A DNA stretch of 64,000 nt from an uncultured Clostridia bacterium (GTDB taxonomy: Bacteria > Bacillota > Clostridia > Christensenellales > Borkfalkiaceae): contig CANQHV010000002.1 in NCBI GenBank assembly GCA_947624005.1, forward strand, positions 62,001-126,000, written 5' to 3'. A program made the translations under genes and the position numbers. How positions within the stretch are numbered: the first letter of the stretch is position 1; each line of letters begins with the position of its first letter. Positions 7,863 through 35,378 of this stretch are shown here, piece after piece. Under the pieces are notes generated by a model. It had not been told where the DNA came from. It was given only the letters and a program-made list of their open reading frames with translations, and ran no database searches.

Positions 7863-7937
7863 GCAGGCGTCGCCTAGCGGTATGGCGTCAGCTTCCCAAG
7901 CTGATTTCGGCGGGTCCGACTCCCGTCGCCTGCTCCA
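7863..7937 (+). tRNA. tRNA-Gly (anticodon CCC)
   Basis: Cloverleaf read by eye. The acceptor GCAGGCG (7863-7869) pairs with CGCCTGC (7927-7933), the discriminator is T and CCA is encoded (7935-7937). The anticodon stem TCAGC/GCTGA encloses loop TTCCCAA, giving anticodon CCC, which decodes GGG. The T-arm is CGGG/CCCG with loop TCCGACT. The 3' end is copied again downstream in both orientations. Confidence 0.93.
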
Positions 7938-8115
7938 AAATTATTGCCCGCATATTGCGGGCATATTTAATAATGCGACGGGAGTCGGACCCTGAGAGGG
8001 AATTTTGCGTTAAGAAAACAGCACAAAAGCGCTGTTTTCAGCAAAATTTGACGAGCGCATAAAGCGCGAAGTCGGCGGATTGCGGAAGCAATACGCGCTC
8101 CCGTCGCCTGCTCCA
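7938..8115 (+). repeat. palindromic tail element bounded by copies of the tRNA-Gly 3' end
   Basis: Region between two genes, without an ORF. In order: hairpin GCCCGC...GCGGGC (7946-7962); a perfect 18-nt inverted copy of the tRNA T-arm/acceptor (7975-7992, complementary to 7912-7929); a nested stem-loop AATTTTGC...GCAAAATT (8001-8048) that encloses GAAAACAGC...GCTGTTTTC; a small hairpin GCGC...GCGC (8055-8067); then an 18-nt direct copy of the tRNA end including CCA (8098-8115, equal to 7920-7937). The same order is seen at 24950-25208. It looks like a small insertion that recreates the tRNA 3' end, or a tail that can pair with the tRNA. Confidence 0.75.
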
Positions 8116-24818: not shown

Positions 24819-24949
24819 GCTGATTTAGGTGTCGTACGAAGGCGAAAGCCTTTCGTACCGAAGGCGCAAGCCTTACGGGACTTGACGGACAAAATCCCGT
24901 CGCCTAAACAAAAAAAACGGCGGTTTGCTTTATGGCAAACCGCTTTAAA

Positions 24950-25208
24950 TGGTTGAGGTGACTATAAACAGTACAAGTGTAGTAATAGTGAATTGACGGG
25001 ACTTGCGCCTTTAGCGGCGCGCCCCGACAAACAGTGCACTGCACTGTTTGGTTTGCGTATCAAGCAATATTATTTGCGAGCCAATCAACGCAAACTGCTC
25101 GCTCCCGCTCGCATCTCCCCCCTCAAGTCCCGTCAAAAATCGGCATACAACAAAGCCGCGCGGACAAAAGTCCGCGCGGCTTTGTTGGTTGAGGTGACGG
25201 GACTTGAA
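24950..25208 (-). repeat. palindromic tail element bounded by copies of the tRNA-Pro 3' end
   Basis: No gene. Reading the minus strand from 25208: the tRNA-Pro 3' end (25208-25185); a perfect 17-bp hairpin (arms 25149-25165 and 25170-25186); an inverted 13-nt T-arm copy (25123-25135); nested palindromes including CAAACAGTGCA-C-TGCACTGTTTG; a direct T-arm copy (24994-25005); the acceptor/CCA part (24950-24962); then hairpin GCGGTTTGC (24920-24943) with a T run. The last copy is split by 31 bases flanked by TGAC. The order is the same as after tRNA-Gly. Before the island inserted, this would have been the natural tail of tRNA-Pro. Confidence 0.7.
25185..25208. repeat. attachment-site copy, distal end of the element
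   Basis: 24-bp copy of the tRNA-Pro 3' end, identical to 35301-35324; flanking bases differ on both sides. Confidence 0.88.
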
Positions 25209-25290
25209 GAATTTTGATTAACTGAAAAATCTTCAAAAATGAGCCATTTTTAATCATTTTTGGCTAAAAATACGCTATTTTTGCACTTCG

Positions 25291-25324
25291 TGCCCCGCGT
25301 CTGCCCCAAATAATTCTGCCCCAA
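25291..25324. repeat. TGCCCC repeats near the left end
   Basis: TGCCCCGC at 25291, TGCCCCAA at 25302 and 25317. The same octamer occurs twice near the right end (35194, 35206). Candidate integrase arm-binding sites. The rest of 25209-25427 shows no gene. Confidence 0.5.
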
Positions 25325-25427
25325 AAAATCAATCAAAAAATAAAAATCAAGGAAAATTTCAAAGCACCTATCGGTTAAAACCTACGCCGCTCTTCCAAGC
25401 GGCGTATAATTTTTGCGCTTAATAATC

Positions 25428-25484
25428 TTTTTACGTTTTTATTACAACTTTGTGTAAAGGTTTATTACTTCTTTTGAGTAAAAT
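25428..25484 (+). promoter_or_regulatory. putative Pho box and pstS promoter
   Basis: TTTAC/TTATTAC-type elements recur at about 11-12-base steps (25429, 25438, 25462, with a TGTAAA at 25453), followed by TAAAAT (25479-25484). There is no good -35, as expected for a PhoB-activated promoter. Confidence 0.5.
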
Positions 25485-25514
25485 CGGGGTAGTAAAACGA
25501 AAGGAGTAATAAAA

Positions 25515-26402
25515 ATGAGAAAGAAAAGAATTGCAAAGATTATGCTTGCGGCGGCGTGCGTTGTCGCAATGGGCGCAAGCAGTGCGGCTATGTTCGCGGG
25601 CTGTTCAAAAGACACGGAAACGATAACCGTTTCGGGGTCTACTTCTATGACCGAGCTTATGCAGGCTCTCGCCGCCGAGTACGAGGACGCTCACCCCAAC
25701 GTACAGATTATAGTAAATCAGGGCGGTTCGTCGGTGGGAATTTCCGACACGAAAGCGGGCTTGAACGACTTCGGGCTTGCCTCCAAAAAAGTTGACGAAG
25801 GCGACGGCGTTAAGGGCGTTCAGCTCTGCCTTGACGGAATTGCCCTGACCGTCAACAAAAACTGCGCCGTAACGCAAGTTACCAACGAGGAAGTTTTTGA
25901 CCTCTATATGAAGGGCACAGCTATCCAAAACACCATAACCACCGCCATTGCCCGCGACCAAGCCAGCGGCACGAGAGAGGCGTTTAACGAGGGCATAAAG
26001 GACCCCGAAGGCAATGATATTAAAAACCACTACAACGGTAACTACGAGCTTTCGGGTTTCACCCACGCGGCGTGGGACGAACAGCAGGCGACGGGCAGTG
26101 TAATCTCGCTCATCGAGCAGTCCACCGTATCCATCGGCTATATCTCGCTCGGCTCGGTTTTAATGAGTAGCGCAAACATAAAAGCCCTTGCGTTCAAGGG
26201 GTATGGGCAGGAGACTTACGTTGCCGCCACCGCCGAAAACGTGTTGAACGGCACATACGCCCTGCAAAGACCGTTCACGATAGTGCTTTCGACCAGCCGT
26301 GAACTCTCGCCCGCGGCACAAGGATTCTACGACTACATTATGAGTGAAGAGGCGCAGGCGGTAATAACCGCCGAAGGGTGCGTATCGACCTATGGAAAGT
26401 GA
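25515..26402 (+). CDS. pstS: phosphate ABC transporter substrate-binding lipoprotein PstS
   Basis: 295 residues. Signal peptide with lipobox FAGC, so the protein is membrane-anchored on the outside. Phosphate-binding motifs are ITVSGSTSMTELMQALA at the N-terminus, GGSSVGISD, and IARDQASGTREAF (the second phosphate loop). Ribosome site AAAGGAG. The stop overlaps the permease gene by 11 bases. It heads the island's phosphate operon and probably responds to PhoB. Confidence 0.95.
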   Translation: MRKKRIAKIMLAAACVVAMGASSAAMFAGCSKDTETITVSGSTSMTELMQALAAEYEDAHPNVQIIVNQGGSSVGISDTKAGLNDFGLASKKVDEGDGVKGVQLCLDGIALTVNKNCAVTQVTNEEVFDLYMKGTAIQNTITTAIARDQASGTREAFNEGIKDPEGNDIKNHYNGNYELSGFTHAAWDEQQATGSVISLIEQSTVSIGYISLGSVLMSSANIKALAFKGYGQETYVAATAENVLNGTYALQRPFTIVLSTSRELSPAAQGFYDYIMSEEAQAVITAEGCVSTYGK

Positions 26403-28179
26403 TAAAAAACTGCACATATCCCTAAATTTTAACGGTGAAAAGGTTGCAAGCGCGGTGTTTGCCGTGTTTGCGGCTTTTTCAACCGTGGCGGTGTTCGGGA
26501 TAATTTTTTACATACTCTACGCGGCTATTCCCGCTTTCCGTCAGATAGGTTTTTTCAAATTTATCTTTTCGGACGTATGGAACGCGCAGACCAATCAATA
26601 CGGCATACTTCCGATGATAGTCGGCAGTATATTTTTAACTTCGCTTTCGGTGCTTGTCGGCGGAACGCTTGCGGTTGTGACCGCCGTTTGGATGGTGTAC
26701 TACTGCCCCAAAAAACTCAAAAAGGCTTACGAGCAACTGATAAACCTTTTGGCGGGAATACCCTCTGTAATATACGGACTTTTCGGCTACACGTTTATCG
26801 TGCCCGCGCTCACAAAGGCTTTCAATTTAGCGGAGAGCGGCACATCGGGAACGGGACTATTGGCAAGCAGTATCATACTTTCTATAATGATTTTGCCGAC
26901 CGTTACGTCGGTTGCCAAAAACTCGCTCAAAAACGTGCCGTCCAACTATTACGAGGGCGCGCTCGCGTTGGGATGTACCAAAAACCAAACGGTTTGGAAA
27001 GTGCTTGTGCCTGCCGCTAAAAACGGAATTTTGGCGGGGCTGATTTTGGGGATAGGTCGGGCGGTCGGCGAAACAATGGCTGTGCAAATGCTTGTCGGCG
27101 GGGCGAACGCCTACCCGTTTTCCTTCTTCACGTCCTTTTCGACGCTCACTTCCATAATCGTCCGCGACATGGGCTACGCGAGCGAGCTTCAAACTTCCGC
27201 GCTGATGGGGTCGGGATTTGTACTGCTTGTGTTCATTTTGATACTTAACCTGTTGCTTCTTCTGACAAGGCGCAATAGTTTGGGCGGCAACCGCTTTTTC
27301 ACCCGCCGCATCGACGAGAGCAACGGAATAGAGAGCCTCCGCTCCTACAAACGCACGGGAAGTGTGCAGGACGTTTTGTGGATTATAAGCTGGATAGTCG
27401 CCCTGTTTATGGCGTTCGTGTTGTGTTTTATAGTAATTTTCGTGCTTGTGAAAGGACTGCCGAACCTCTCGGCAAACTTCCTTTTCGGGAGAAGTTCAAA
27501 CAGGCAGACCACTTTGCAACCGGCGTTTGTTTCCACGGGACTACTTATTTTACTGTCGCTTGCAATCGCCCTGCCGCTCGGCATTGGTGCGGCAATATAC
27601 CTCAATGAATACGCAAAAAAGGACAATCCGCTCGTAAAAATCATACGCATTTTCATAGACACGCTTTCGGGTATTCCGTCGATAATCTTCGGTATGTTCG
27701 GAATGTTGTTCTTCGTAACGGCTTGCCGCCTCAACTATTCCCTGACGGCGGGAGGAATAACGCTTGCTTTGATGATTTTGCCAACTGTGATAAGGAGTAC
27801 AGAACAGGCTCTTTCCGAAGTGCCCGACAGTATGCGCGAGGCGAGCTACGCTTTGGGCGCGGGGAAATTAAGAACAGTGTTCAGGGTGGTGCTTCCTCAG
27901 GCTCTTTCGGGAATAGTAACGGCGATAATACTTTCAATCGGAAGAATCGTTTCCGAGAGCGCGGCTTTAATTTACACGGCAGGGTCGTCCATATACACGC
28001 CCACGGGATTTTCAAGTCAGGGCTCGACGTTCGCCGTCCTCATTTACAGATTTATGGTAGAGGGTACGCACACCGAAGAAGCGTATGCGACAGCCGCAGT
28101 TTTAATGTTCGTCGTGGTCGTCTTAAATATTCTTGTAACCCTCTGCGAGTGGCTGTTCAAAAGGAGAAACAAGGTATGA
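26392..28179 (+). CDS. pstCA: fused phosphate permease PstC-PstA
   Basis: 595-residue polytopic permease carrying both subunits in one chain. The N-half (residues about 15-300) is PstC-like: six helices, [15 protein letters not shown], and the EAA loop [20 protein letters not shown]. The C-half (about 325-595) is PstA-like: [27 protein letters not shown], and a second EAA loop [20 protein letters not shown]. The usual arrangement is two genes. The stop overlaps the pstB start (ATGA). The fusion fixes the heterodimer in cis with two copies of PstB. Confidence 0.93.
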
Positions 28180-29021
28180 TTTTACTCAAAAAACGCAATA
28201 TATGTCGGGATATTCCGGCGCAAAAGCCGCAAAAAACCAAGTGCATAACGCCCTTTGAAATTACGGGAGATACCGCCGTTTCCGTCAGGGAAATGAACTT
28301 GTATTATGGCAGTTTTCACGCCCTCAAAAGCGTGTTTATGGAGTTCCCCAAAAATAAACTCACCGCTCTTATCGGTCCCTCCGGTTGCGGCAAGTCAACG
28401 CTTATAAAAAGTCTTAACCGAATGAACGACCTTGTCGAGGGCTGTAAAATCACGGGCGAAATAAAAATCGGCAACGACGATATCTACGATAGGCGGTGCG
28501 ATTTGGCGCGATTGAGGAAAAACGTCGGAATGGTCTTTCAACGTCCTAACCCGCTTGCGATGAGCATTTACGACAACATTGCCTACGGTCCGCGCACGTT
28601 CGGCATCCGCAAAAAGGAAGAGCTGGACGGCATTGTGGAAAGCTCCTTAAAAGGCGCGGCAATGTGGGACGAAGTGAAAGACAGACTCTCAAAATCGGCT
28701 TTGGGGCTTTCGGGCGGGCAACAGCAAAGGCTGTGTATTGCCCGTGCCTTAGCGGTCGAGCCGCAAATTCTTTTAATGGACGAACCGACGAGCGCGCTCG
28801 ACCCCATTTCGACGGCAAAGATAGAGGAGCTCTGTCTGGAACTCAAAAAGCGCATGACGGTCATAATGGTCACGCACAATATGCAACAGGCGTTCCGCAT
28901 TGCCGACTTCACGGCGTATTTTCTGCTTGGCGAAATGATTGAGATGAACGAAACAAAGGAGTTATTCGCGCACCCGCAGGATAAACGGACGGACGATTAC
29001 ATTAACGGTAGATTCGGCTGA
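28176..29021 (+). CDS. pstB: phosphate ABC transporter ATPase PstB
   Basis: 281-residue ATPase. Walker [10 protein letters not shown], the PstB-specific [10 protein letters not shown]-loop [19 protein letters not shown], signature [15 protein letters not shown], Walker [13 protein letters not shown] and H-loop VTHNMQQA. The open frame extends upstream, but ATG 28176 overlaps the permease stop and follows AAGGAG. An N-terminal extension of about 30 residues precedes the usual start. No phoU follows. Confidence 0.96.
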
Positions 29022-29023
29022 TT

Positions 29024-29078
29024 TTACATTTTTATTACATTGTAATAATTGTAATATTTCGCCGTAAAGTGCTAAAAT
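29024..29078 (+). promoter_or_regulatory. putative Pho box and promoter of phoB-phoR
   Basis: TTACA at 29024 and 29035 (11 bp apart), dyad ATTACA-T-TGTAAT, another TGTAAT at 29050, then TAAAAT at 29073. This fits autoregulation by PhoB. Confidence 0.5.
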
Positions 29079-29093
29079 ATCTTTGAGGTTATT

Positions 29094-29735
29094 ATGAAAG
29101 GGAAAGTATTTTTGTTGGAAGATGATACAAGCATTTGCGGGCTTGTAAAGGTCGCGCTTGAAATGAACGACTTTAAGTTTTCGTCCTTTTCCACGTTAAA
29201 AGATTTTACCGCCGCACTGCAAAAGGAACTGCCCGACGTCGCACTGCTCGACATTATGCTCCCCGACGGAAGCGGGTTGGACGTCTTAAAACTTCTCAAA
29301 GAAAAATACCCGTCCGTGAGTTGTATCATGCTCTCCGCGCTCTCGAAAGAAGAGGATAAAGTAAACGGCTTGAATATGGGTGCGGACGACTATATCGCAA
29401 AACCGTTTTCGGTGTTGGAACTCGTCGCCCGCGTAAACGCACGGCTTCGCGGCAAGCAGAAATCCACCGTGCTCACGGCGCAAAACATAACGCTCGATAC
29501 CGAAACTTTCGCCTGCGAGATTGACGGAAAGCCCGTAACGCTCAACCGCAAGGAGTTCGAACTTTTGAAGTGCTTTATGGAAAATCGGGGCAAGGTCTTA
29601 TCGAGGGAAAAACTTCTGACTGCGGTCTGGGGCTATGAAACGGGCGAAACGCGCACCCTCGATAACCATGTCGCCCGCCTCCGCAAATTGGGCGTACAAA
29701 TCGAAACCGTGTTCGGCGTGGGGTACAAATTATGA
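29094..29735 (+). CDS. phoB: PhoB-like response regulator
   Basis: 213 residues, OmpR/PhoB family. Receiver: LLEDDTS, Asp53-type ALLDIMLPDGSG, MLSALSKEED, DDYIAKPFS. Winged helix: LNRKEFELLKCFMENRGKV and GETRTLDNHVARLRKL. It lies between the pst genes and a PhoR-like kinase, so phosphate control is the natural inference. The stop overlaps the kinase start (ATGA). Confidence 0.92.
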   Translation: MKGKVFLLEDDTSICGLVKVALEMNDFKFSSFSTLKDFTAALQKELPDVALLDIMLPDGSGLDVLKLLKEKYPSVSCIMLSALSKEEDKVNGLNMGADDYIAKPFSVLELVARVNARLRGKQKSTVLTAQNITLDTETFACEIDGKPVTLNRKEFELLKCFMENRGKVLSREKLLTAVWGYETGETRTLDNHVARLRKLGVQIETVFGVGYKL

Positions 29736-31069
29736 AATGGCGCATACTATTACTTTCGCTCGGCATAACGCTGGTGTGCATACTGCTGTTCTCGCTGGGC
29801 TCGACGCAGGTCTACTATAATTCTTCGGTGAACGAAACGGAAAACGCCTTAAAGACCTATATAAACTCGTTTGAAAAAGGCGGTTATTTGAGGGATAGTA
29901 GTGGGGCAACCGACTATTCCGCCGACTTGAACGGCGTGCGCGTTACATTTATGGACCTGCGCGGGAATGTTTTGGGCGACAGCCAGACCGAGGATATTTC
30001 CCCCGACCACTCCGACCGCGAGGAAGTCAAAGAGGCGATATTAAACGGCGAGGGGTTTGCCGTGCGGTCAAGCTCCACCCTCGGTGAAAATATGATTTAT
30101 TACTGCAAGAGTATTGACGGAATTTTGGTGCGCCTCGCCGTGCCCGTGCCGTCCGAATGGGCGATATTCGCCCGCACCCTGCCCACCCTTGCAATGTATA
30201 TCGGAATTGACGTCATACTGTGCCTTATTCTCTCTTTCGTCGCAACCTATTTCATTCTGAATCCCGTAAAAACGCTTGCAACGGACGCGGCGGGCGGAAT
30301 TGTAAAAAGTAAATATTCCGAGCTTGCGCCGATTGCCGATATTTTGAACGAACGCAACCGCAATATCGCCCGACAGATGGAAGAAATCAAGACCGAAAAA
30401 GAGCTTGTGGAGCGTGCGCAGAACTCCAAAGACGAGTTTATTTCCAACGTCACGCACGAGATGAACACGCCCTTGACGTCAATTCGCGGCTATGCCGAAC
30501 TTTTGGAAGCGGGCGGCATGACCGAGGAGCAAAAAGCAGTTGCGTATTCCACGATTTTAACGCAGAGTGAACGTCTTTCGAGCTTGATTGCCTGCATTAT
30601 CAATTACAGCAAGCTCGACAGCGACGACTTGCCCGCCTACGAAGTGGACTTTTCTTCGCTCACACGGGAGATGATTTCCGCACTTAAACCCGAAGCCGAC
30701 AAGCGGAATATCACGATAATCGAACATATCGACGACAACGTGATTATCATGAGCCGCCACGAGAGGCTTACGGAGATTTTCGGAAATTTGGTGCGAAACG
30801 CTATAAAGTACAATAAAGACGGCGGGAGCATTACGATAACTCTGAACTATCGCGGACTGACAGTTGAAGATACGGGTATCGGCATTGCCGAGGAAAACAT
30901 GAGCAAGGTTTTCTCGCGCTTCTTCACGGTGGATAAATCGCACGGCGGCAAAAACGGCGGCTTCGGTTTGGGGCTTGCCGTCGCCAAGAAGATCTGCCAA
31001 AAATCGGGCTGGAAAATAAGCGTAACCAGCGCCCTCGGCGTTGGTAGCACATTCACCGTAGAATTTTGA
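29732..31069 (+). CDS. phoR: PhoR-like sensor histidine kinase
   Basis: 445 residues. Two membrane helices (about 4-24 and 150-172) flank an extracellular domain, then a linker, H-box FISNVTHEMNTPLTSIRGYAE, N-box NLVRNAIKYN, G1 VEDTGIGI, F-box and G2 GGFGLGLAVAKKI. The layout and partner support a PhoR role. The last 11 codons (GVGSTFTVEF and stop) occur again at 31983, beyond the next gene pair. Confidence 0.92.
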   Translation: MKWRILLLSLGITLVCILLFSLGSTQVYYNSSVNETENALKTYINSFEKGGYLRDSSGATDYSADLNGVRVTFMDLRGNVLGDSQTEDISPDHSDREEVKEAILNGEGFAVRSSSTLGENMIYYCKSIDGILVRLAVPVPSEWAIFARTLPTLAMYIGIDVILCLILSFVATYFILNPVKTLATDAAGGIVKSKYSELAPIADILNERNRNIARQMEEIKTEKELVERAQNSKDEFISNVTHEMNTPLTSIRGYAELLEAGGMTEEQKAVAYSTILTQSERLSSLIACIINYSKLDSDDLPAYEVDFSSLTREMISALKPEADKRNITIIEHIDDNVIIMSRHERLTEIFGNLVRNAIKYNKDGGSITITLNYRGLTVEDTGIGIAEENMSKVFSRFFTVDKSHGGKNGGFGLGLAVAKKICQKSGWKISVTSALGVGSTFTVEF

Positions 31070-31089
31070 AATAAATAAATTTTCATGCG

Positions 31090-31118
31090 AAAAGGAAGCC
31101 CCTCTATGGGACTTCCTT
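31090..31118. terminator. bidirectional terminator
   Basis: AAAGGAAGCCCC / GGGACTTCCTT imperfect stem between phoR and the convergent NTF2-like gene, with TTTTC on the minus side. Confidence 0.65.
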
Positions 31119-31134
31119 AAACTATTGTTAAAGA

Positions 31135-31518
31135 TTATTTTTTGATGGTATTGGAATTTTGGTTGTAGGCTTTGGCAACGCATTTCCATTCGCCGTTTAA
31201 TTTCAGAAGAAGTAAGTAGTCGGTAAAATCAATACTGCCGCCCCAGCCTTCTTCCAAAACACGTACGACGGCAAGCGTTTCCTCGACTGTAACAACGTCA
31301 ACTCTTGCTTTAAAATTTTCGTCCGCGCCGACCGTATCTACATTTTTATAGAACTGTTCGATAGAACCGTGTTCCAGCTCGCCGTTGAGAATACCGAACA
31401 AGACAGCTTCGCCGGTAAAAAGCTGTTTTGCGTATTTGCTGTTGCCCTCGGCTACGCTCCTGACGAAGTTCATAGCCGCTTTTTCGACATCCTGATAGTC
31501 TTTCAATGTTGCTCTCAT
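31135..31518 (-). CDS. NTF2-like (lumazine-binding type) small protein
   Basis: 127 residues with the NTF2/SnoaL cone fold pattern. It starts KDYQDVEKAAMNFVRSVAEG, has the FKARVDVVTVEETLAVVRV strands, and ends DYLLLLKLNGEWKCVAKAYN, like putative lumazine-binding (DUF4440-like) proteins. The catalytic role is unknown. AAGGAGG precedes the start. It is divergent from, and likely controlled by, the HxlR regulator; such pairs often respond to electrophiles or redox signals. Confidence 0.78.
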   Translation of the reverse strand: MRATLKDYQDVEKAAMNFVRSVAEGNSKYAKQLFTGEAVLFGILNGELEHGSIEQFYKNVDTVGADENFKARVDVVTVEETLAVVRVLEEGWGGSIDFTDYLLLLKLNGEWKCVAKAYNQNSNTIKK

Positions 31519-31542
31519 AAGATGAGCCTCCTTAAAAATTTA

Positions 31543-31607
31543 TTGACAAATAGATTTTATGATTGTATTATTATTTTGTCAAGTACGCACATTTATGTAC
31601 TGTACTT
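31543..31607. promoter_or_regulatory. overlapping divergent promoters with an operator
   Basis: Plus strand TTGACA (31543) -17 bp- TATTAT (31566) drives the HxlR gene. Minus strand TTGACA (31582-31577) -17 bp- TAAAAT (31559-31554) drives the NTF2-like gene. The two promoters share the same 40 bases. AAGTAC...GTACTGTACTT (31581-31607) is a likely HxlR operator. Confidence 0.75.
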
Positions 31608-31635
31608 ACTATTTGGAAAGTATAGAGGAAATATT

Positions 31636-31965
31636 ATGGAACGTTGCATTGCCAATGAAAAACTTTCGGACACGGGCTTTTCGTACACATTATCGCTCAT
31701 CAATGGAAAATACAAGATGACCATTCTCTACACACTCATGGAGTTTTCCGTGGTGCGCTTTAATGAGTTACAAAGATATATCAATGGGATTTCTTATAAA
31801 ACGTTGAGCGTAATGCTGAAAGAACTTGAAGCGGACAAGCTGATCGTTCGCAAGGAATATCCGCAAATTCCGCCGAAAGTGGAATACAGCCTTTCCGAGC
31901 GCGGAAAATCGCTCATGCCTATTCTTGATATGATGTGCGAATGGGGAGATAAGAACAGATTATAG
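31636..31965 (+). CDS. HxlR-family winged-helix regulator
   Basis: 109 residues. Typical HxlR features: an N-terminal Cys (residue 4, MERCIANEK), then LSLINGKYKMTILYTLM, RFNELQRYINGISYKTLSVMLKELEADKLIVRKEYPQ in three helices, and the wing PPKVEYSLSERG. The start at 31636 follows GAGGAAA. The N-terminal Cys may sense thiol stress, as in YodB/HypR, which is inference. Likely represses itself and the divergent gene. Confidence 0.9.
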   Translation: MERCIANEKLSDTGFSYTLSLINGKYKMTILYTLMEFSVVRFNELQRYINGISYKTLSVMLKELEADKLIVRKEYPQIPPKVEYSLSERGKSLMPILDMMCEWGDKNRL

Positions 31966-31982
31966 ATTGACATTTGCCCCAC

Positions 31983-32015
31983 GGCGTTGGTAGCACCTTT
32001 ACCGTTGAATTTTGA
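31983..32015 (+). pseudogene. remnant copy of a phoR 3' end
   Basis: Codons GVGSTFTVEF and stop, nearly identical in DNA to 31037-31069 with a few silent changes. A scar of a second kinase gene or of the insertion that brought in the NTF2/HxlR pair. Confidence 0.75.
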
Positions 32016-32103
32016 AAGTAGCAGTCGATAGCCTGTTAAAACTTTTGCCAAAAACAAACGCAAAAAATTGTGACTAAATTGTTTGATTTGCAATTTGTAG
32101 TGT

Positions 32104-32235
32104 TATAATTAAATTACACTTCCCGCTATTGAGCGGTGTTATGATGAGAAGTATGTCCTACTTCTCAATCGGCAAAAGGTTTGCCGAGCTGCCTTGCACT
32201 TTTATAAGGTCTATGACGTGACCTTATTGTTTTTT
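32104..32235 (+). ncRNA. candidate small RNA with own promoter and terminator
   Basis: TATAAT at 32104-32109 with a weak upstream TTTGAT (16-bp spacer). The predicted transcript from about 32116 has CCGCT/AGCGG, then a perfect 9-bp hairpin TGAGAAGTA (32145-32167), CGGCAAA-AGG-TTTGCCG (32170-32186), and an ATAAGGTC/GACCTTAT stem (32204-32227) followed by TGTTTTTT. There is no ORF. It may be a regulatory RNA of the mobile element or an attenuator ahead of its mobilisation region. Confidence 0.55.
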
Positions 32236-32327
32236 GGTGTGCGAGGTTGGGCTTTATTGTTGTACAATTTTTTAGAAAAAATTTTTTGATTTTTGAAATT
32301 TTCGGTGATAATTTCATCTAATTATAT

Positions 32328-32346
32328 GAGGGGCATTATTCCCCTC
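32328..32346 (+). repeat. hairpin in the pre-mobilisation region
   Basis: GAGGGG-CATTATT-CCCCTC. No gene is evident in 32236-32540 apart from this; a 64-codon minus-strand frame there has no ribosome site. Confidence 0.5.
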
Positions 32347-32540
32347 AAAGCAGGAATTATGAGATAATCTTAAATCAAAACTTTATAGAATGGTTGACCA
32401 CCATAGGGCAATTTGAAGTTGCTAAATTCGGTTAAAGTCGGTGATTTGCGAGAAGCGGTCAGCGGCTTTTTTGTTGTCTTTTTTAAGTCAATTACCGTTT
32501 CTTCAAACGGTAAAATAAAGTCATTTAAGGAGGTGAAACA

Positions 32541-32561
32541 ATGACAATCAGACCGCCATAA
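32541..32561 (+). CDS. six-residue leader peptide
   Basis: ATG encodes MTIRPP and stop. It is preceded by AAGGAGGTGAAACA, an unusually strong ribosome site for so short a frame. It lies 100 bases before oriT and about 190 before the relaxase. A leader peptide, perhaps pausing at Pro-Pro, or what is left of a lost gene. Confidence 0.4.
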   Translation: MTIRPP

Positions 32562-32661
32562 CAAGTAAAAATCTGCACGCCGAATGAACGCCGGTTACAC
32601 ACCGACATTACAAAACAGCCCCCTGCAAGGGCGAACGGAACTTATGGAGCGAAGCGCAACT

Positions 32662-32681
32662 AAGTGTAGTGAGCTACACTT
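32662..32681 (+). other. oriT: MobV-type origin of transfer (oriT)
   Basis: AAGTGTAGTGAGCTACACTT: an 8-bp stem with a TGAG loop just upstream of the relaxase. It matches the pMV158-type MobV nick region (AAGTATAGTGTGTTATACTT as I recall it) with paired changes that keep the stem, so the expected nick is after G32673. Confidence 0.65.
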
Positions 32682-32732
32682 GCGAAGCAAATTAGCCACT
32701 ACACGGTAAATTTCAATAAGGAGGTAAAATTT

Positions 32733-33677
32733 ATTTCATATTTAGTTTGTCATATGGAAAAGTACACCCGGCAGGAAGTCTCGCCCGTCGAGAAAGAAAA
32801 TGAAAGAGACGAAAATTACGAGGCGACAAATCCTCAAATAGATAGTAGCCGCACAAACCAAAACTATCACTTAAAACGTCCGCAAGGCAGTTACATTGAG
32901 ATGATAAACAATAGACTGTCCCAGCTGACCTTAAAACGTAAGTTGAGGTCGGATGCAGTCTATATGGATTCGTTTGTGTTAGGCTCGGACAGAGAGTTTT
33001 TCGGTTGTTTAACCGAAGGTCAACAAAAAGAATTTTTTTGGGACTGCTTGGACTTCTTCTCGGAAAAATACGGCTATGAAAATATCCTTTCTGCCGTAGT
33101 CCACAAGGACGAAACAACCCCTCATCTTCACCTCAACATAGTGCCGATAGTGAACGGCAAGTTGTGTTCAAAGGACTTGTTCGACAGGCAGAAGCTCTCT
33201 CAACTTCAAACGGAGTTTTATGAGAAGGTCGGCAAGAAATGGGGACTTCAACGCGGCAAGGAGGGAAGTACGGCAAAGCACCTTGATACAGCCGAGTTTA
33301 AGGCTAAAAAGATAATCGAGGGTGCGGAGTAGCAGGCGCAGGAGTATTTGGACGGAGTACACTCCTCTATTGCCGAGGCGCAAAACCAACCGTTGCCGAA
33401 AAAGAAAAAGGAAGTTGCCGAAGAAATAACCTCTCTGCGCAAGGATAACGCCGCGTATAAGCAACAGCTTGAAATCAAGAATAGAGATTCAAAAGACCTA
33501 TTCAATCTTGTGCAGGAGCAAGAGCGAAAGTTGCGGACTTCGGAGAAAGCGTACAAGATGGTAACGGACATAATAGAAACCTATCCCGACGAGTTCGAGG
33601 AACTTCTTTCAAAGGCACGGCAAAAGAAAAATCCGCCCACTACTTTCCACGTCAAGCGAGGTGGTTGGAGCAAGTAA
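32733..33677 (+). pseudogene. MobV-family relaxase, decayed
   Basis: Relaxase that would nick at oriT. The frame reads ISYLVCHMEKYTRQ from 32733, which matches MobV starts (MSYLVCHM), but the first codon is ATT; AAGGAGG sits 8 bases upstream of it, so a start mutation is likely. The next ATG is 32754. Motif ATNPQID and the histidine motif VVHKDETTPHLHLNIVP (HxDExTPHxH) are intact. An in-frame TAG at 33330-33332 cuts the protein, and the frame then continues with a coiled-coil tail to 33677 (ITSLRKDNAAYKQQ). Two point changes thus inactivate it; the truncated 192-residue form still contains the catalytic core. Confidence 0.85.
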
Positions 33678-33695
33678 AAACTTTACTTTTGGGTC

Positions 33696-33750
33696 TTGAC
33701 AAATCAAGCGAACTGTGATATATCGTATTAACAACTTGTTACGGTATATC
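33696..33750 (+). promoter_or_regulatory. promoter with dyad operator
   Basis: TTGACA (33696) -17 bp- TATATC (33719), overlapped by GATATATCGTA (33717-33727) and its near-complement TACGGTATATC (33740-33750). A likely regulated promoter for the small ORF and integrase. Confidence 0.6.
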
Positions 33751-33803
33751 TTACAACTTAATCACAACTGAATACTTTTTAATAAATTAAGGAGGAAACT
33801 TTT

Positions 33804-33878
33804 GTGAAAATCGTAACAACTGCACTCGCAAAAAGTATCGAAGAACTTTTTGCGAAGAGGAGCAACAACGGAACTTAA
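33804..33878 (+). CDS. 24-residue small ORF
   Basis: GTG start after AAGGAGG with good spacing, encoding MKIVTTALAKSIEELFAKRS and four more residues. Helical and basic. The place between relaxase and integrase is where an excisionase often sits, so this may be a remnant or a short leader. I do not recognise it. Confidence 0.45.
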   Translation: MKIVTTALAKSIEELFAKRSNNGT

Positions 33879-33973
33879 TTACAATTTGGCGAACAGACAA
33901 ATTGTTTTTAGCGCAGTTTGTTGCGACGAAGTGAGAGAACATTGTAACTACACAAAAATAAATTTAAGGAGAA

Positions 33974-35185
33974 TTGACAGAACAGGAATTATCTAACATA
34001 TTAAAAACCATAAGGGCGATACCGGAAAGTAGCGACGAGATGGCAATGGCTGTATTAAAAGCCGCCGCAGATTCCATTTCGATGGACAAGCTCAAAGCGT
34101 TGACCTCCGTGCCCGAACATGACAGTAAATTAACCGATAGCACGGCTTTGAAATTTTCCGATAAGGAGATTTCAAAGATGCCCAAAACATTCAGGAAAGA
34201 ATTTAGAACGCAAGGTTGCACCTGCCACGTCCGCAAACGTAAAAGCGGCGTTGATACTTGGAATTACGAAATCCGCTATCGCCGCAACGGCTACAACATA
34301 GCGGCATCGGCAAACAACCTTGAAGAAGCAAAGCAAAAATTCATTAAAAAACTAAATCACGTCGAAAAGTATGGTAAACAAATTAAAGAAAATAGAATCC
34401 CGACTACTTTTCAGGAGTTTTCGGACTATTTCTTTGAGACCTACTACAAGCGCAAAGTGGTAGCATATTCGTATAAGGTTACGCTAAACCGATTCAATAA
34501 AAACTTACGTCCTATTTTTAAGAGTATGCCGTTGAAAAATATAACGGGATTTATGTGTCAAAAATTGCTTGACGAAGTTTGTACACAAGGCAAGACAAAA
34601 ACGGCAATTGAGCTGAAAGCCACACTAAACAATATATTTAAAATGGCGATACGGCACGGAATAATTCAATCTAACCCGATTGACATAGTTTTTATTGAGA
34701 ACCATGCAAGCGAACACGGAAAAGCGTTGACAAAAGAACAGGAAAAGTTGCTATTGACATCAACGAAAGACACACCGTTCCAGCTCATGTTTGCCGTTGG
34801 GTTATATACGGGAATGCGCCCGAACGAGTACAGCAGTGCAAAAATAGAGGGTGATTTTATTGTTGCGATTAACAGTAAGCGCAAAAACGGCAAAGTTGAG
34901 TATAAGCGTATCCCGATTATCCCAATGTTGAAACCTTATTTAGAGAATGTAAAAGAGTTAAAATTTTATGTGATAAACCGCATACGTGAAAAATTACATA
35001 CAATTCTGCCCCAAAACAGACTTTACGACTTGCGAACAACATTTTACACCCGTTGTCAGGAATGTGGGGTTGCCGAGGTCGCAAGGAATGAATTTGTTGG
35101 ACATTCTCTCGGAGTTCTCGGCGATACCTATACCGACTTATCCGACGAGTTCCTCTTAAAAGAGGGAGCAAAATTAAATTGGTAG
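33974..35185 (+). CDS. tyrosine recombinase (integrase)
   Basis: 403 residues. The N-terminal part has an AP2-like arm-binding domain (WNYEIRYRRNGYNIAASANNL), the middle part the SAM-like core-binding domain (TFQEFSDYFFETYYKRK), and the C-terminal part the catalytic domain. Catalytic Arg is in GLYTGMRPNEYSS, Lys in NSKRKNG, and the second Arg in LYDLRTTF (Tyr replaces the usual His of HxxR). GHS and nucleophile Tyr are in VGHSLGVLGDTYTDLS. The start is taken as TTG at 33974, with AAGGAG only 2 bases away, so it may be wrong. It lies 116 bases from the tRNA-Pro target. Confidence 0.88.
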   Translation: MTEQELSNILKTIRAIPESSDEMAMAVLKAAADSISMDKLKALTSVPEHDSKLTDSTALKFSDKEISKMPKTFRKEFRTQGCTCHVRKRKSGVDTWNYEIRYRRNGYNIAASANNLEEAKQKFIKKLNHVEKYGKQIKENRIPTTFQEFSDYFFETYYKRKVVAYSYKVTLNRFNKNLRPIFKSMPLKNITGFMCQKLLDEVCTQGKTKTAIELKATLNNIFKMAIRHGIIQSNPIDIVFIENHASEHGKALTKEQEKLLLTSTKDTPFQLMFAVGLYTGMRPNEYSSAKIEGDFIVAINSKRKNGKVEYKRIPIIPMLKPYLENVKELKFYVINRIREKLHTILPQNRLYDLRTTFYTRCQECGVAEVARNEFVGHSLGVLGDTYTDLSDEFLLKEGAKLNW

Positions 35186-35193
35186 ACGATTTG

Positions 35194-35213
35194 TGCCCCA
35201 ATTTATGCCCCAA
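35194..35213. repeat. TGCCCCAA repeats near the right end
   Basis: Two direct copies (35194-35201, 35206-35213), matching those at the left end. Candidate integrase arm sites. Confidence 0.5.
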
Positions 35214-35253
35214 AATGAGAAATAAAAGTAGCAAATGACACTTAAAAACAGCA

Positions 35254-35296
35254 GAAAAAAGCCCGTTTTTGGGCGAAAATCGCTCAAAAACGGGCT
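35254..35296 (-). terminator. terminator downstream of tRNA-Pro
   Basis: 12-bp stem AGCCCGTTTTTG with an inner GCGA/TCGC stem, followed on the minus strand by a T run. It lies within the element but serves the tRNA. Confidence 0.8.
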
Positions 35297-35300
35297 AAAA

Positions 35301-35324
35301 TTGGTTGAGGTGACGGGACTTGAA
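35301..35324. repeat. attachment-site copy within tRNA-Pro
   Basis: 24 bp identical to 25185-25208; covers the CCA end, acceptor strand and T-arm of the tRNA. Confidence 0.88.
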
Positions 35325-35378
35325 CCCACGACCTTCTGGTCCCTAACCAGACGCGCTACCAAACTGCGCTACACCTCA
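35302..35378 (-). tRNA. tRNA-Pro (anticodon AGG)
   Basis: The minus strand folds as a cloverleaf. Acceptor TGAGGTG/CACCTCA, D-stem GCGC/GCGC with loop AGTTTGGTA, anticodon stem TCTGG/CCAGA with loop TTAGGGA (anticodon AGG), T-loop TTCAAGT, encoded ACCA. The body matches bacterial tRNA-Pro. A34 is uncommon in bacterial tRNA-Pro. The 3' end serves as the integration site of the element. Confidence 0.92.

Follow-up and report, generated by a model that had tools for sequence, protein, structure and literature searches.

The tail of tRNA-Pro(agg) in the genome of an uncultured Clostridia bacterium is probably (at a rough probability of 0.6) what is left of an integrative cassette of about 200 bp that has no genes; the cassette would have carried a folded attC-like site and been moved in trans by a tyrosine recombinase acting at the tRNA T-loop. 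The tail lies in a window of 64,000 nucleotides, the whole stretch of DNA that was analysed (contig CANQHV010000002.1, positions 62,001 to 126,000). The unit behaves as an integrated cassette, and what follows many of the tRNA genes in these genomes is an array of cassettes, not a plain terminator. Two copies of the 3' half of the host T-arm, one inverted (A') and one direct (A), enclose a core of hairpins; A' and A are complementary and match the host tRNA, and the core stays conserved. From the sequences we infer the recombinase, the rewriting of A', and the function of the unit as DNA or as RNA.

Structure of the tRNA-Pro tail

Sequence reading and a repeat search place the Pro tail on the minus strand, the same strand as tRNA-Pro (Table 1). 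Every part that the initial annotation had listed for the tail was found: the tRNA end, the inverted T-arm copy, the dyads (e.g., the P4 dyad of the core at 25028-25050, CAAACAGTGCA/TGCACTGTTTG), and the terminator with its T run. Two of its descriptions are amended. The hairpin given as 17 bp exists with perfect arms of 18 nt, and the direct copy of the tRNA 3' end is present but is split by a 31-nt insert. A covariance model of the core (R1) scores 163.4 bits over 24993-25136 of the window (cmsearch). The 1.22-Mb genome has four copies of the 11-mer GACGGGACTTG, three in about 210 bp of the Pro tail and one in tRNA-Pro, and a single copy of its reversed control pattern; the repeats of the 11-mer in the tail are above chance expectation. 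An additional partial T-arm copy is seen at 24875-24885 of the window, and matching sequence lies downstream of the element of locus L125.

Table 1. Features of the two tRNA tails and of the island in the window.
Feature	Position	Strand	Basis
tRNA-Gly(ccc), the host tRNA of the Gly tail	7863-7937	+	ARAGORN
Gly tail: hairpin, A' (7975-7992), hairpin-bearing core, direct copy (8098-8115)	7938-8115	+	Sequence; related cores
Second terminator-like hairpin, then T run	24910-24943	-	Sequence
Remainder of direct copy: acceptor strand and CCA	24950-24962	-	Repeat D1
31-nt insert between two GTCA copies, splitting the direct 3'-end copy	24963-24993	-	Sequence
A, direct copy of T-arm 3' half; 3' strand of helix P1	24994-25005	-	Repeats D4, I5
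Type-B conserved core: hairpins P2 (GNRA-like loop), P3, P4, P5	25006-25122	-	Alignments A1, A3; R1 match
A', inverted copy of tRNA-Pro T-arm 3' half; 5' strand of helix P1	25123-25136	-	Inverted repeats I5, I6; cmsearch
Terminator-like hairpin of the unit, perfect 18-nt arms (25148-25165 / 25170-25187)	25148-25187	-	Inverted repeat I1
Displaced tRNA-Pro 3' fragment, T54-A76: first A copy, acceptor strand, CCA	25186-25208	-	Sequence; repeat D1/I6
Island in the T-loop, between tRNA-Pro and element	25209-35301		Pfam matches; boundaries from sequence; G013 without island
tRNA-Pro(agg), the element's host until the island inserted	35302-35378	-	ARAGORN; Rfam tRNA, 65.2 bits

Size and spread of the element family

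R1 was built from A1, an alignment of seven type-B copies in which the Pro, Leu, and Ser tails were used and the Gly tail was not. At E 0.01 it matches 59 of the 93 genomes of the genus, the source genome included, and has no match in 34. It matches 156 of 301 genomes of the family, in 12 of 18 genera (E 1e-4), and 3 of 291 genomes of a class sample, all three in the same family (E 1e-3); filters were strict in the large scans, so absences are soft. A search of this kind had been proposed in the initial annotation, and the many further copies bear out its "defined element family", a large one that is confined in these scans to one clostridial family. A sub-family with a different core and the same plan (B2) comprises 26 copies, which were folded separately.

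A DNA pattern of the core occurs in nine stretches of GTDB contigs, of which eight bear the title uncultured Clostridia and the ninth uncultured Christensenella, and in no viral contig. Among phages and plasmids, blastn gave no match to the element at the sensitivities used. With Rfam 15, only the three tRNAs of the window reach the gathering score; in eight loci there are 28 matches up to E 5, of which only tRNA and 5S reach it. For want of a gathering-score match in the window or the eight loci, a known structured RNA family was rejected. Searches of an open-licence PMC library showed no description of such elements.

Other tails in the same genome

The initial annotation had placed the Gly and Pro tails in one family. 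The common plan stands: on sequence reading the parts follow in the same order in both, and the motif that it reported from both tails (TTTGCGTT) is indeed present in each. A common core does not, and membership of the Gly tail in the R1 core family is unsupported, since R1 matches Pro and misses Gly in the window. As a DNA query the Gly core has matches in 22 of the 93 genus genomes, only six of them at E <=1e-12, the source genome included.

The source genome has 28 tRNA genes, whose surroundings were read; one tail is cut by a contig end. The tail of tRNA-Leu(aag) has the same core as the Pro tail (77% identity) with T-arm copies of its own. Other hairpin elements, here called type A, are found at the Ser(gct) and Tyr tails, at a 5' half of tRNA-Pro(cgg), and at two places with 5S-like sequence, at one of which Rfam calls a 5S gene.

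Several further arrangements were observed. In L025, L054, and L041 a type-A element separates the complete tRNA, Pro(cgg) or Val, from a copy of the 5' half, and in L041 the element ends in an inverted anticodon-arm copy. In L023 and L024 the type-A element is downstream of 5S-like sequence, with the 3' end of the 5S copied behind it. Behind tRNA-Leu(caa) in L017 and tRNA-Thr(ggt) in L002 there are tandem units without the type-B core, every one of which closes with a tRNA 3'-end copy. At about 1204-1430 of L079, an inverted anticodon-arm copy and another repeat lie between tRNA-Pro and a second partial tRNA copy, which is perhaps one more class of element.

Linkage to tRNAs and match to the host

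R1 was run over 91 sources, of which 89 are loci from the genus scan and the other two are the window and L016, and gave 104 matches, of which 103 were parsed; the one dropped is a plus-strand echo of the window match at 28.5 bits. This set leaves out weaker genus matches and further family-level matches (L155-L164 and others). A tRNA lies within 700 nt upstream of 76 of the 103 copies, on the same strand in all 76, and 63 copies lie 47-59 nt after it (median 52). The hosts of these 63 are Leu (22), Ser (21), Pro (9), Arg (6), Gly (3), Thr (1), and Ala (1). Among the 27 copies with no tRNA called in that distance, ten are preceded at 70-79 nt by an A..CCA fragment that agrees in 12-14 of 14 bases. 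The remaining 17 have neither a called tRNA nor a good upstream fragment; they count against the cassette reading, and the tRNA linkage that the initial annotation expected of further copies, borne out for the 76, is not established for them.

The arms of the 63 copies match the T-arm of their own host, both inverted and direct, as expected from the earlier claim that the ends of the element copy the host tRNA. The longest exact inverted match averages 11.3 nt to the own tRNA against 5.6 nt to other tRNAs, the own match being longer in 3606 of 3790 comparisons, and the direct match averages 18.3 nt against 5.9. The longest direct match is exactly 21 nt, from C56 to the CCA end, in 39 of the 63, and the last 10 nt are exact in 47. 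Exact matches are short in some copies (just 6-8 nt for 13 of the 63 inverted arms, just 4-6 nt for 4 of the direct), so many arms have drifted, which again counts against the cassette reading.

Insertion at the T-loop

The unit consists, in order, of the tRNA 3' end (C56 to CCA), a terminator hairpin, a spacer, A', and the core of four hairpins. Its insertion can be followed at the orthologous tRNA-Ser(gga) loci of genomes G053 and G089, which share 1816 aligned bases at 82% identity. Compared with the empty locus of G053, the occupied locus of G089 has one extra piece of 212 bp between two copies of a 21-bp repeat; the remaining gaps in the alignment are of about 15 bp or less. The repeat spans the region from C56 of the T-loop to CCA, and the tRNA is left complete. 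An element of the tyrosine-recombinase type would leave just this at a tRNA gene: a clean insertion between direct repeats of tRNA sequence, with the tRNA complete. No gene of the size of an integrase is present in the 212-bp unit or in the array units that were read, and as a tRNA-integrated element the unit could therefore only be non-autonomous.

Twelve loci that share one tRNA terminator were read by the author as three occupied, one occupied and displaced, seven empty, and one truncated. Arrays are built of unlike units (e.g., B2-B1-B2-B2 behind tRNA-Ser in L104). Where the terminators on the two sides of the unit could be compared (48 copies; 15 of the 63 were not measurable), 15 copies have like terminators, some of these copies being tandem arrays, and 33 have unlike ones; on the 33 unlike pairs, a fixed target-site duplication that includes the terminator is rejected. 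In L202-L212, one terminator sequence (AACGAGTATAATCCGAACC...) stands in different genomes behind several Ser tRNAs and one for Leu, which looks like a spread of the terminator itself among tRNAs.

DNA of other kinds, including the island of the window, joins at the same T54/T55 point. On the author's reading, unlike DNA joins the A..CCA fragment at the T-loop in the window and in L066, L067, L075, L093, and L115. The island cargo comprises a PstS-like protein, a permease, a two-component pair, HxlR, a Mob_Pre relaxase, and, beside tRNA-Pro, a tyrosine integrase (Pfam); a phosphate-uptake-like set (solute-binding protein, permease, two-component pair) occupies 25515-31069 of the window. That the tail adjoined tRNA-Pro before the island arrived, as had been proposed, is supported by genome G013. 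Its orthologous locus aligns over 743 bases upstream (75% identity) and 111 downstream (89%), and its element lies 50 nt after tRNA-Pro with no island between. On the author's reading, that element is a hybrid: it begins as type B and includes an inverted piece of type A.

Fold and covariation

The fold was assessed on A3, a structure-blind alignment of 62 of the 103 copies (at least 88 bits, 136-153 nt, distinct). Its 36 pairs form in 96.2% of cells (84.0 in shuffles), 24 pairs show double changes (16.0 in shuffles), and the covariation score is 0.368 (0.147 in shuffles). Four of the five covariation measures were reached by none of 500 shuffles; the fifth, further pair types, is unexceptional (49 against 46.4, reached by 80 of 500). 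Slid structures pair in 30-48% of cells, a comparison in which the proposed structure is favoured, being derived from these sequences. The host-matching helix P1 has 10 pairs, 8 of them with double changes, and is paired in 91.9% of cells; the other helices are paired in 94.8-99.1%. Inverse and direct half-sites thus stand around a covarying hairpin region, the arrangement of an attC-like site. With the covariation, the tRNA linkage and the match to the own tRNA, a plain terminator or a chance repeat is ruled out as the identity of the tail.

The loop of P2 was parsed as GNNA in 59 of the 62 copies, and 58 of these 59 are GNRA; a tandem G.A/A.G step is found in 43 of the 62, with T.A pairs in 13. 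GNNA loops and tandem G.A steps occur on the tRNA-sense strand only, so this is likely the folded strand. The GNRA loops suit RNA as well and thereby count against a cassette of DNA. In an alternative that we consider unlikely, the unit is a mobile structured RNA: the A'-core-A transcript would be the active form, A' would be a guide or clamp on the host T-arm, and spread would proceed via an RNA intermediate or an RNA-guided enzyme. The strong covariation fits such an RNA, as do the loops, the tandem G.A steps on the tRNA strand, and units that end in a tRNA 3' end and terminator. RNA helices usually tolerate G.U, yet in type B the G.U cells (31) are not above the A.C cells (39). The smaller B2 set has 9 against 4, and the argument is indecisive because template switching could also remove G.U intermediates. 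The want of an Rfam family at gathering score also speaks against RNA, and the clean insertion with a 21-bp tRNA repeat suits recombination by an integrase. We lean toward single-stranded DNA, not RNA, as the form in which A'-core-A acts.

Change of host tRNA and the proposed mechanism

In a tree of 65 cores (drawn with no support values) the host tRNAs are intermixed, and core identity and arm identity are weakly correlated (Spearman 0.14). Within G082, the Pro-agg core has 87% identity with that at Arg-ccg, and their A' differ; within G091, the cores at Ser-gct and Ala-cgc are 84% identical and their arms are different and host-matching.

In the cassette reading, one DNA strand of A'-core-A would fold, and the folded form would be the recombination site, as in the attC of integrons. 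The 21-bp repeat and the T-loop boundary agree with sites of tyrosine recombinases; the anticodon arm, T arm, and 3' end are known regions for such sites in tRNAs, according to PMC8371274. A T-loop tyrosine recombinase supplied by islands such as that of the window would move the unit in trans. Once the unit has a new host tRNA, A' would be rewritten to fit by template switching between the two arms, which are nearly complementary. In a single step, template switching can form or repair perfect stems and makes inverted copies (PMC8794818). An origin of A' by fold-back copying of the whole tRNA 3' end is not favoured; the spacer before A' is mostly not a complement of the acceptor strand on the author's reading. 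A unit built for one tRNA would spoil the 3' end of another on entry, so a change of target needs an extra step, and this is the chief gap of the proposed mechanism.

A bolder version, tentative and with the odds against it, is self-retargeting mobile DNA, in which a conserved folded scaffold has its A' rewritten for each host gene to pair beside the insertion. If so, the element would choose its site, or be repaired, by means of a stem that the host templates and that is in effect programmable, which sets it apart from attC, the ends of MITEs, and a classical attP. Its sister systems would be the type-A elements found next to 5S genes and at 5' halves of tRNAs.

Replication errors alone would dispense with the recombinase: template switching and unequal recombination would give hairpin-prone tRNA tails their inverted and direct copies, and gene conversion would spread the core. 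Inverted copies made in one step by template switching (PMC8794818) are in keeping with this, as are the tandem arrays whose terminators are alike (a score of at least 17 in 15 of 48 pairs, against shuffled maxima of 7-13) and the extension of the hairpin into CCA, which is seen in 29 of the 63 element tails and in 2 of 14 other tails. Such errors make a quite improbable explanation of the precise T-loop boundary in many tRNAs (a direct match of exactly 21 nt in 39 of 63), the clean 212-bp insertion, and the unlike terminators of 33 of the 48 copies. An old immobile tail in vertical descent, its cores kept alike by gene conversion and its arms by selection on the stem, would agree with relatives that share host and arm mutations (e.g., the same A' change at Pro(cgg) of G006 and G064) but is highly improbable given presence and absence at orthologous loci (the empty site among them), the genus genomes without a match (34 of 93), and the mixed host labels in the core tree.

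Comparison with known systems

The cassette proposed here shares features with four known systems. Genomic islands and integrative elements at tRNA genes, which tyrosine integrases move (Williams 2002, cited in PMC8371274), likewise integrate in the T-arm region, leave a direct repeat of the tRNA 3' end, restore the tRNA, and form arrays at one tRNA. The unit described here differs in being about 200 bp long and without genes, in carrying an inverted, host-matching arm within a conserved hairpin core, and in having its cores at many different tRNAs.

An integron cassette with its attC has the order half-site, cargo, inverse half-site, structured middle, half-site. The A-spacer-A'-core-A topology is alike, and so are the one-direction arrays and the covarying hairpin site with strand-specific features; unlike integron cassettes, the units use tRNA genes in place of attI, have host-specific arms, and contain no gene where read. 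The integron label fails, as the integron integrase (TIGR02249) is over cut-off in none of the 93 genomes, which are incomplete MAGs. Weaker TIGR02249 matches occur in 87 of the 93 and also in all 14 controls, which is what any tyrosine recombinase would be expected to give.

The CTX phage integrates at dif by XerCD through a single-stranded folded attachment site formed from annealed inverted half-sites. A one-strand site of this kind is the principle proposed here; the phage uses XerCD and dif where the unit uses the tRNA T-loop, and the unit has no phage genes. MITEs and palindromic repeats such as the Rickettsia palindromic elements are small, gene-less, hairpin-forming, and dispersed, also near RNA genes. 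The unit is alike in these respects and unlike in its precise tRNA site and in its ends, which copy the host gene: its arms follow the host tRNA, where a MITE would have terminal inverted repeats of its own, alike in all copies.

Set beside these systems, the element would be a minimal integrative unit, gene-less and of about 200 bp, that uses and restores tRNA genes and holds a host-specified stem in a conserved fold. Its copies would be natural experiments on the change of tRNA host by integrative elements, on the origin of folded recombination sites such as attC, and on template switching that keeps stems perfect.
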